Shown: one piece after another, positions 11,755 to 42,297 of the stretch | Numbering within the stretch: position 1 is the first letter of the stretch | Layout: every line of letters begins with the position of its first letter | Virus record (IMG/VR): IMGVR_UViG_3300042453_002500 | Coordinates: 1 to 43,373 of that record | DNA: 43,373 nucleotides | DNA from: a virus | Direction: 5' to 3' (one strand) | Notes under the pieces: generated by a model | Database searches by the model: none | What the model saw: only the letters and a program-made list of their open reading frames with translations | What the model was told of the DNA's origin: nothing | Position numbers and translations under genes: made by a program

Positions 11755-11827
11755 TGCCCGTGGTCGGATTCGAACCGACCCTGGAAGGATTTTAAGTCCT
11801 CTGTCTCTTCCGCTGGACTACACGGGC
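11755..11827 (-). tRNA. tRNA-Leu (anticodon UAA) with a short variable arm
   Basis: A 73-nt cloverleaf. The acceptor GCCCGTG/CACGGGC pairs fully. The D stem is GTC/GAC. The anticodon stem GAGGA/TCCTT closes a CTTAAAA loop with T33 and anticodon TAA. The variable region is five bases (CCAGG), the T arm is GTCGG-TTCGAAT-CCGAC, and the discriminator is A. The anticodon reads UUA (Leu). Bacterial tRNA-Leu is normally class II with a long variable arm; this one is class I in shape, which is odd. CCA is not encoded. Confidence 0.85.
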
Positions 11828-11869: not shown

Positions 11870-11943
11870 TGCAGGTTAAGAGGATCGAACTCTTCTTCGC
11901 GGAATTATGAGTTCCGAGCATTCCACCAGATTGCTAAACCTGC
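11870..11943 (-). tRNA. tRNA-Met (anticodon CAU; elongator type, or Ile2)
   Basis: A 74-nt cloverleaf with acceptor GCAGGTT/AACCTGC, D arm GCA…TGC, anticodon stem CGGAA/TTCCG with loop CTCATAA, and T arm AAGAG-TTCGATC-CTCTT. G1-C72 pairing and the lack of three G-C pairs at the base of the anticodon stem argue against an initiator. A lysidine-modified Ile2 tRNA cannot be excluded. Its 5' end overlaps the last 10 bases of the HNH gene at 11934-12365. Confidence 0.88.
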
Positions 11944-40702: not shown

Positions 40703-40710
40703 TATTTATG
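40703..40710 (-). promoter_or_regulatory. Late promoter-like CATAAATA overlapping the thyX stop
   Basis: Matches 7 of 8 bases of TATAAATA, 23 bases before the 40680 start, with the TAA of thyX inside. Confidence 0.45.
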
Positions 40711-41458
40711 GACTCAGACGTGCCTTATGAAGACGCTTCTCTTCATAATAACCCCAAACATTTGGTGCCCACTTTTGAATTTCTGGAGCAATTTGTTCAC
40801 ATAATGCCTGAATTTCAAGTTGAGCATCTAATTTAGCACGAAGATCAAGAATATGAAGAATAGAACGAAGATTGCAAGAAACTACAAAGTTTTGACGAAT
40901 TCCTTGTGCTAGACCATCACGAATATGTTCTTCACACATTCCCTTTTCATACTTCACAGCATAACGCTTACATCCTTCTACATACCATTTCATCTCATCA
41001 TCATAATCTTCTTGAGTCCATTCATACTTCTTACCCTTACGATTGGTATAGAAACCAGGAGGACGAGAATAGAAAACTTCATCAGGTTTCAATTCTCCTT
41101 GTGCCACCTTCACAACTCTCTTACCAGTGTATCGTTGAGATTGAACATCAAACGTCACACCTACCCTGTGAGTCCTTGCTTGCACCATAACGTTGTGGAC
41201 ATACCCAGACACCGAGAATGTAATACCGGGGTGTTCTACAGGTCCCCAGTGCCCTCTCTCGTTGCTTAGGAGTTGCTCCACAATCCACTCACCACACTTT
41301 TGCGGTGTAGGAATTTGTTGATGATGAATAGGAATTTCCGAATAGTCACACTTTCCTGCTTGGTAAATTACCTGCTCTGGAATTGGATATCCTTGAAGTT
41401 TTACTACTTCAAGTCTCTTATCAAGTTCAAGAAGATCTTTTGCTTTAATAGGTCTCAT
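40706..41458 (-). CDS. thyX: Flavin-dependent thymidylate synthase ThyX
   Basis: A 250-residue enzyme making dTMP from dUMP with FAD, methylene-THF and NADPH. The ThyX signature RHRxxSxNExSxR appears as RTHRVGVTFDVQSQRY (95-110). HWGPVEHPGITFSVSG (70-85) and RQNFVVSCNLRSILHILDLR (near 190-210) are the dUMP/FAD-binding segments. The signature's Asn-Glu is replaced by Phe-Asp, seen in cyanophage forms. It overlaps the 55-residue gene upstream (ATGA), so it is translated with it. Confidence 0.93.
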   Translation of the reverse strand: MRPIKAKDLLELDKRLEVVKLQGYPIPEQVIYQAGKCDYSEIPIHHQQIPTPQKCGEWIVEQLLSNERGHWGPVEHPGITFSVSGYVHNVMVQARTHRVGVTFDVQSQRYTGKRVVKVAQGELKPDEVFYSRPPGFYTNRKGKKYEWTQEDYDDEMKWYVEGCKRYAVKYEKGMCEEHIRDGLAQGIRQNFVVSCNLRSILHILDLRAKLDAQLEIQALCEQIAPEIQKWAPNVWGYYEEKRLHKARLSP

Positions 41459-41846: not shown

Positions 41847-41948
41847 TCAGGCAACTTGTGGTTTTTTTGCCATATTCAGTTGTGCTACTTGAAGGAGTTT
41901 TTCCTTCTTTGCTTTTGTTTTGAGATAGCGAACGAAATAAGTATTCAT
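41847..41948 (-). CDS. 33-residue basic hypothetical protein
   Basis: A 33-residue basic protein (MNTYFVRYLKTKAKKEKLLQVA). The strong AAGGAGG ribosome-binding site and the ATGA overlap with the upstream gene support expression. Function is unknown; it may be a short helical accessory to the preceding 45-residue product. Confidence 0.65.
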   Translation of the reverse strand: MNTYFVRYLKTKAKKEKLLQVAQLNMAKKPQVA

Positions 41949-42082
41949 TTGTGCCCCTCCTTTACATACTTAATACCACGATAGGTTTCGTTGTATTGTT
42001 GGGGTTGCTGCATCATTTGCTGTTGGTATTCAATACGCTTTTGAGTATCATATTCAACACCACGATATACGACTTTGGACAT
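41945..42082 (-). CDS. 45-residue DUF4278-like protein, 'downstream peptide' of the glutamine-riboswitch-like leader
   Basis: A 45-residue protein with VYRGVEYD at residues 5-12 and TYRGIKYVKEG near 33-43. YRGxxY is the motif of the DUF4278 family of cyanobacteria. A strong AAGGAG ribosome-binding site stands before the ATG. It follows the tandem riboswitch-like leader by about 33 bases, just as 'downstream peptide' genes follow the Downstream-peptide glutamine riboswitch in cyanobacteria and cyanophages. Expected control: glutamine level. The protein function is not known. Confidence 0.75.
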   Translation of the reverse strand: MSKVVYRGVEYDTQKRIEYQQQMMQQPQQYNETYRGIKYVKEGHK

Positions 42083-42114
42083 TAGGTTTTCTCCTTAGTT
42101 GTTTAGGTTAAAGA

Positions 42115-42215
42115 GCGTTCCTTCCGTCGGCTTTTGCGTTCGCTATTTGCGAATAGCGAATGAACGATCCGTTCCGAGTCGGCGTACTTCCGTCTGGATA
42201 TTCCAGATGAACGAC
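42115..42215 (-). ncRNA. Tandem glutamine-riboswitch-like leader (glnA/Downstream-peptide type)
   Basis: Two adjacent folds on the minus strand. Copy 1 (about 42170-42214) has CGTTC…GGAACG as P1, a TCTGGA/TCCAGA P2 and the signature GACGGAAGTA. Copy 2 (about 42115-42167) has CGTTC…GGAACGC as P1, a 9-bp TTCGCTATT/AATAGCGAA P2 and GCCGACGGAAGGAACGC. These are the conserved parts of glutamine riboswitches (glnA and Downstream-peptide RNAs) as I recall them. A -10-like box is just upstream (TAATAT/TATAAT at 42218-42228) and the tiny DUF4278-like gene is downstream. Whether it is two aptamers or one composite element is not certain. Confidence 0.7.
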
Positions 42216-42217
42216 AT

Positions 42218-42228
42218 ATTATATATTA
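42218..42228 (-). promoter_or_regulatory. Probable -10 region of the riboswitch transcript
   Basis: Overlapping TAATAT and TATAAT hexamers within an AT stretch. No good -35 box is seen. A start near 42215 would put the first aptamer at the very 5' end. Confidence 0.4.
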
Positions 42229-42238
42229 CCACAAAATT

Positions 42239-42280
42239 AAAAAAGTAGCAACCGATACTAAAGTGTATCGCTACGCTACT
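42239..42280 (-). terminator. Rho-independent terminator before the riboswitch leader
   Basis: Paired arms AGTAGC/GCTACT and CGATAC/GTATCG with a small internal loop and a 6-base apex, followed by six T on the minus strand. It ends the 42690-42340 gene pair. Confidence 0.8.
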
Positions 42281-42297
42281 GTTTTAAAAACCTTAAG

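Follow-up and report, generated by a model that had tools for sequence, protein, structure and literature searches.

A double glutamine-riboswitch-like RNA of cyanophages that probably folds as one interlocked element and carries protein genes in its stem-loops in many relatives

A small transcription unit in a cyanophage-like region

The window analyzed here is a stretch of 43,373 nucleotides from virus record IMGVR_UViG_3300042453_002500. Its region between 41.5 and 42.4 kb is closest to T4-like cyanophages (Kyanoviridae), which agrees with the cyanophage origin proposed in a preliminary description of this DNA, and cyanophage S-SRM01 matches this region with 77.8% identity over 97%. The minus strand carries a small transcription unit that is bounded by a terminator-like hairpin upstream and by a terminator (GGGAGGATTGACATCCTCCC followed by T7) at 41842-41823. 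Between these boundaries, a TATAAT box precedes a double aptamer-like RNA of 98 nt (42213-42116), which is followed by a Shine-Dalgarno (SD) region, a gene for a 45-aa DUF4278-like protein of the YRGxxYDT type (41945-42082), and a 33-aa ORF (41847-41948) that overlaps the end of this gene and whose homologue is annotated in S-SRM01.

The hairpin that precedes the element (42244-42280), already noticed as a terminator in the preliminary description, appears from its fold and sequence to belong to the upstream gene and is followed by a T run. The segment from 42230 to 42290 folds with -20.2 kcal/mol (z -4.75), and none of 200 shuffled sequences is equally stable. A −10 box, TATAAT (42218-42223), lies 4 nt before the first CGTTC, and an NtcA-like box of the form GTA-N8-TAC (GTATCGGTTGCTAC; 42245-42258) lies 21 nt before TATAAT.

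Elsewhere, two tRNA genes are present on the minus strand (11755-11827 and 11870-11943), and a search of the whole stretch with Rfam at gathering threshold returned two tRNAs only. A gene for a ThyX-type thymidylate synthase (40706-41458, minus strand) is located downstream of the unit. Thymidylate synthase is likewise found downstream of the unit in S-SRM01, S-PM2, and P-TIM68, and talC is found there in P-SSM4 and P-SSM7.

A double aptamer-like element

From 42213 to 42116 on the minus strand, the element reads CGTTC-A-(P2 hairpin)-ACGGAAGTA-CGCCGACT-C-GGAACG-GAT-CGTTC-A-(P2 hairpin)-ACGCAAA-AGCCGACG-GAAG-GAACG. The two aptamer-like copies with CGTTC/GAACG strands and perfect P2 stems (6 bp in copy 1, 42193-42207; 9 bp in copy 2, 42139-42160), which had been placed at 42115-42228, are present slightly inside these limits. 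A deviation of copy 2 from the usual order after its P2 had also been noted, and ACGCAAA is indeed found at this place.

A relationship to glutamine riboswitches had been proposed as well. Rfam model RF01739, which represents the type-1 glutamine riboswitch (glnA RNA), aligns with the two halves at 42168-42112 (33.2 bits, E 1.8e-5) and at 42213-42170 (21.6 bits, E 0.028), both of which are under the gathering score of 35 bits. In some relatives, RF01739 halves score 35.4-35.6 bits. Formally, therefore, neither half in the window is recognized by Rfam, but these scores do not refute the relationship because the canonical core is divided over the two copies, such that each half is without part of it. 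The additional suggestion of a match to the type-2 riboswitch (Downstream-peptide, RF01704) is not supported, as this model gives no match in the stretch even at E 10. Elsewhere, RF01704 yields sub-threshold matches only, in S-PM2 and P-TIM68.

A covariance model of the composite, built from 20 other phage loci with the window excluded, finds a single match in the 43-kb stretch, which is the window element (110.9 bits, E 1.5e-27). Because the single-sequence fold of this element is of unremarkable stability (z -1.2, not significant), its fold energy was left out as evidence. The double aptamer-like element is real, and the case for it is stronger than originally stated.

A scan of IMG/VR with a pattern for one half matched at least 120 stretches, and a second scan with a variant core also matched at least 120. 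The composite pattern was found in 3 of 84,980 bacterial and archaeal species, and all three of these genomic matches look like phage contigs. The cyanobacterial aptamers that were compared are single and have ordinary P2 and P3 stems.

Pairing between the two copies

Covariation indicates that the element is probably one composite RNA rather than the two tandem folds of the preliminary description. The P3 strands of the window, CGCCGACU in copy 1 (42177-42184) and AGCCGACG in copy 2 (42125-42132), are antiparallel partners, and P3 is paired between the copies in about 180 phage loci among the matches listed. At the last P3 position, the base that follows GCCGAC in copy 1 faces the one that precedes GCCGAC in copy 2, and in all 92 two-copy loci the two make a standard pair (U-A in 58, G-C in 18, A-U in 15, and U-G in 1). 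The first P3 pair exhibits an A-U to C-G exchange between the copies. In the window and S-SRM01, an A-to-C change in copy 1 is matched by a U-to-G change in copy 2, which preserves the pair. The second of these changes (T to G in the DNA) falls in the second GACGGAAG, which is lineage-specific; most phages have GACTGAAG at the same place.

A second P3 sequence type, found in P-RSM4, S-TIM4, P-TIM40, and metaG-MbCM1, is also complementary between copies (AUUCG/CGAAU, AGUCG/CGACU, and GGUCG/CGACU). This type is fully paired in 91 of 92 further IMG/VR loci among the matches listed, with an extra exchange to AGUCA/UGACU. The window-type P3 contains A-C mismatches at two of its eight positions.

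The outer P1 stem would pair CGUUC of copy 1 (42209-42213) with GAACG of copy 2 (42116-42120), the latter forming one unit with the GAAG junction (42116-42124) that is supported by P1 compensation and by the covariance model. P1 is almost invariant, with variants in two loci only (L130 and L131). When loci were sought in which the 3′ strand of copy 2 starts with something other than GAACG, two emerged, both with AAACG. In these two P1-variant loci, the 5′ strand of copy 1 is CGUUU in place of CGUUC and thereby complements AAACG, with the 3′ strand of copy 1 and the 5′ strand of copy 2 unchanged. This is a C-G to U-A compensation between copies, although the two variants may share one event. 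Searches for more variants in the copy-1 3′ strand and at two other P1 positions yielded none of relevance, as their five matches are unrelated sequence.

Because P1 and P3 covary in this manner, both helices join the 5′ part of copy 1 to the 3′ part of copy 2. The P2 stem of copy 1 likewise shows covariation. The loci share ancestry, and thus the independent compensatory events are fewer than the loci. The inner P1 hairpin, GAACG-GAU-CGUUC (42162-42174), consists of the copy-1 3′ strand and the copy-2 5′ strand and is present in the minimum-energy fold. It is invariant in 96 of 96 composites, and a hairpin that never varies permits no covariation test. The spacing between the copies is 3-5 nt. 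In one locus (L051), the cores of the two copies are 600 nt apart, farther than in other loci, and an insertion between or inside the copies is possible.

A canonical outer half and a permuted inner half

The outer half takes its 5′ part from copy 1 and its 3′ end from copy 2, and reads CGUUC-A-P2-ACGGAAGUA-P3-GAAG-GAACG. The crystallized type-1 aptamer has the arrangement CGUUG-A-P2-CGGAAGUA-P3-GAAG-CAACG (PMC5393176). Both type-1 junctions are present, with CGGAAGUA after P2 in copy 1 and GAAG before the P1 3′ strand in copy 2. The covariation data support the view that the outer half rebuilds the canonical type-1 core, with the inter-copy helix serving as P3, and in sequence this outer core hardly varies among phages of marine and freshwater origin.

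The order of parts in the inner half is circularly permuted (GGAACG-NNN-CGUUCA-P2-ACGCAAA), such that its P1 is closed by 3-5 nt and its P3 is open. ACGCAAA replaces ACGGAAGUA, and CG replaces GAAG. The inner half may serve either as a second site or as a structural partner, and two-site binding is uncertain because these replacements leave it without parts of the core. The composite very probably derives from an RF01739 aptamer and may work like one. We do not class it as a plain member of RF01739 because its halves score under the cut-off and neither has a P3 of its own.

Protein genes nested in P2 loops

Among 94 classified composites, 68 carry a whole gene in one or both P2 loops (copy 2 in 32, copy 1 in 17, and both in 19), and 26 have two short P2 hairpins. 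The window represents the gene-less form and S-SRM01 a filled one: the two share the rare P3 change described above, and copy 2 is filled in S-SRM01 and empty in the window.

The P2 strands that flank copy-2 ORFs are 137-194 nt apart. A P2 stem of at least 5 bp is nevertheless found in all 68 distinct copy-2 inserts, versus 25 expected on reshuffling (maximum 36), and in 28 of 33 copy-1 ORFs, versus 13 expected (maximum 21). There are 12 different 5-bp P2 sequences among the copy-2 inserts, including C-G/U-A and A-U/C-G exchanges, and TCTAT/ATAGA forms the P2 of 30 of the 68.

The AUG of the nested genes is located 3-7 nt after CGUUCA, and in 50 of 52 copy-2 genes P2 contains all or part of it. 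In 50 of 52 copy-2 genes, the stop codon UGA consists of the last P3 base plus the next two junction bases. Because this stop is inside the core, copy-2 proteins end in codons read from the core, usually as ..DAKAD, and the residue before this ending varies with the 5′ strand of P2 (KIDAKAD, WDAKAD, KDAKAD, and RDAKAD). Copy-1 genes stop at UAA, either in the core or shortly before it. In one locus (L075), the ORF nested in copy 2 stops before the core (..FKVGE) and is without the DAKAD end.

Comparisons among the nested genes (pN/pS of about 0.10-0.19, with third codon positions changing most) show at the sequence level that they are coding and under purifying selection. The encoded proteins are about 50-70 aa in length; their N-terminus is hydrophobic, and two cysteines are often present. 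They belong to PHROG 504, to PHROG 6471, or to no family, and searches of the nested genes against Pfam returned nothing convincing. The annotations of isolates include several of them as hypothetical CDS (S-SRM01, DSL-LC02, P-SSM4, and P-HM2).

Downstream gene, candidate expression platform, and promoter

The preliminary description had named a 45-codon YRG gene with a DUF4278-like product as the output of the element. Its protein matches Pfam DUF4278 with E 5.5e-4, which is under the Pfam cut-off, and PHROG 5049 with E 1.9e-10, in keeping with this proposal; a comparison of the DUF4278-like protein with solved structures gave no match. A YRGxxYDT mini-protein gene is located downstream in nearly all composites checked. 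In two loci (L082 and L101), the DUF4278-like protein is extended at its N-terminus (MNTLTLIKKQIEKAAALHDAQ..), perhaps through fusion with a neighboring small ORF. Glutamine riboswitches of the hosts control DUF4278 genes, including that for the glutamine synthetase inactivating factor IF17, and are ON switches (PMC6316151).

A single candidate SD-pairing platform was found, located after copy 2 (42091-42115), in which CUCUUUA (42115-42109) is complementary to UAAGGAG (42097-42091), the SD. Phages of the same group as the window carry both segments as well. Without the P1 3′ strand, SD accessibility goes down in 20 of 80 leaders and up in 5 of 80. In P-SSM4 (L008, 119-304), the composite is preceded by a manA RNA (RF01745, 184 bits) at a distance of a few hundred bases.

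The motif GTA-N8-TAC occurs in 81 of 90 related upstream regions, versus 4.7 expected. It is placed 51-55 nt before CGTTCA in 47 cases, and in about 13 it is a palindrome at the −10 box. Of the same 90 regions, 84 have a TAN3T sequence at a distance of 5-14 nt ahead of CGTTCA, versus 36 expected. The NtcA-like box of the window (42258-42245) is weaker evidence because it lies inside the terminator arm at its distance from TATAAT. NtcA sites are already known in cyanophages (PMC3037559). The −10 box is often part of an inverted repeat directly before the aptamer (GGTCTATAATGACC, AGAGGTATAATAATCCTCT, and GGTATGCTAACATACC, for example in L016, L029, and L110). The arms of this repeat differ between phages with complementarity kept. 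The repeat may act as an operator or form a 5′ hairpin.

Proposed function and alternative explanations

We consider it likely that the locus as a whole is best explained by a composite RNA with a glutamine-binding outer half, control of the DUF4278-like gene, opposition by nested genes, and NtcA. The outer half and the inter-copy P3 would form a type-1-like aptamer, with the far end of P3 capped by the permuted half, and glutamine would most likely be bound by the outer half. Folding of P1 would then control translation of the DUF4278-like gene through the SD-pairing segment. By homology with the host switches, glutamine would probably turn this gene ON. Because the nested AUG is in or beside P2 and the stop is usually in the core, the folded aptamer should block the start of the nested gene. 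Conversely, a ribosome on the nested gene would unfold the aptamer, which would place nested and downstream genes under opposite control. The NtcA-like box, the motif of which is enriched, might add transcriptional control by nitrogen status if NtcA binds there.

A more elaborate version of this proposal is a two-output switch, in which a ligand-closed P2 represses the nested AUG and alters DUF4278-like output, ribosomes melt the aptamer so that the outputs are exclusive, and the halves with their shared P3 may bind two glutamines cooperatively. This version is plausible, but we regard it as somewhat less likely than not.

Perhaps the composite fold is real and no longer senses glutamine, having become a structural or ribosome-responsive leader (for translational coupling, RNA stability, or protein binding) that arose from a glutamine aptamer. 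The sub-cut-off Rfam scores of the halves and the divergence of the inner core are consistent with this possibility, as is the expectation that ribosomes translating nested genes would often occupy the RNA. However, the CGGAAGUA and GAAG junctions of the outer core have the sequence of the crystallized aptamer (PMC5393176) and are nearly invariant in marine and freshwater phages, and the family of the output gene is under glutamine-switch control in hosts. We therefore regard the loss of glutamine sensing as unlikely.

Still less probable are two independent tandem aptamers, each with its own P1, P2, and P3, that exert pseudo-cooperative control as the literature reads glutamine doublets. Rfam aligns the halves separately, P1 can pair within either copy, and 157 glutamine doublets have been interpreted in this manner (PMC9481103). 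Yet the would-be partners of the variable P3 bases within a copy are constant and often mismatched, with 65% of cells paired, and these bases are paired between copies. The P1 variants would leave a C-A mismatch if paired within copy 2, and each copy is short of 2-3 core bases that the composite supplies. Across the alignment, the composite arrangement pairs 97.9% of cells with 10 double-change pairs, versus 92.6% and 8 for the tandem arrangement, and in each of 23 gene-less loci it is also more stable, by a mean of 4.5 kcal/mol. Two tandem aptamers were rejected on the covariation of P1 and P3 across copies, as was the type-2 riboswitch on its missing match in the window.

Finally, it is highly improbable that the P2 pairing around nested ORFs merely reflects the context of start codons together with conserved codons at the C-terminal end, rather than an RNA stem. 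In favor of this explanation, many inserts share ancestry, and a single P2 sequence accounts for 30 of 68. Against it, every one of the 68 copy-2 inserts is paired, through 12 different sequences with base-pair exchanges, and the residue before ..DAKAD follows the P2 5′ strand.

Relationship to known systems

The composite resembles the type-1 glutamine riboswitch in its P1 (CGUUC/GAACG), its P2, and its CGGAAGUA and GAAG junctions. Type-1 riboswitches in cyanobacteria also control DUF4278-type genes, and the composite sits upstream of DUF4278-like genes. In contrast to type-1 riboswitches, its P3 is an inter-copy helix rather than a hairpin of its own, a second and permuted half is present, its P2 loops can hold genes, and each half falls under the cut-off. 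With the type-2 riboswitch it shares a short DUF4278-like peptide gene downstream, a related core, and CGCA after P2, but the pseudoknot topology differs, in addition to the missing RF01704 match.

Tandem glutamine riboswitches are known (Weinberg 2010, PMC2864571; PMC9481103), and, like the composite, they come from cyanobacterial or marine sequence and consist of two consecutive aptamer copies. The published interpretation of these doublets is one of separate aptamers whose output is digital or pseudo-cooperative, whereas P1 and P3 of the composite cross the copies. In cyanophage S-CREM1, one 99-nt glnA annotation (44.0 bits) spans a whole unit (PMC9964418). This element is the same composite, and the part of that report considered here does not describe its double, interlocked nature or the nested genes of its relatives. 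Our literature search found no earlier account of a shared P3, a permuted half, or nested genes, and an earlier mention, for example in supplements, is possible.

If our reading is correct, some "tandem" glutamine riboswitches, at the least, are in fact a single interlocked RNA in which one half is circularly permuted by nature. The same reading would also tie small cyanophage proteins of unknown function (PHROG 504, PHROG 6471, and DUF4278-like) to the nitrogen status of the host, which the virus may use to choose between small proteins.

Group I introns carry ORFs in peripheral loops and resemble the composite in that a loop of a structured RNA encloses a protein gene. The composite differs in that it is not an intron and in that the start and stop codons lie in the stem and core of the aptamer itself. 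We know of no earlier metabolite aptamer that holds protein genes in its stem-loops with aptamer nucleotides as their start and stop codons. Such an arrangement, if true, would permit a direct test of the competition between translation and ligand sensing on one RNA.
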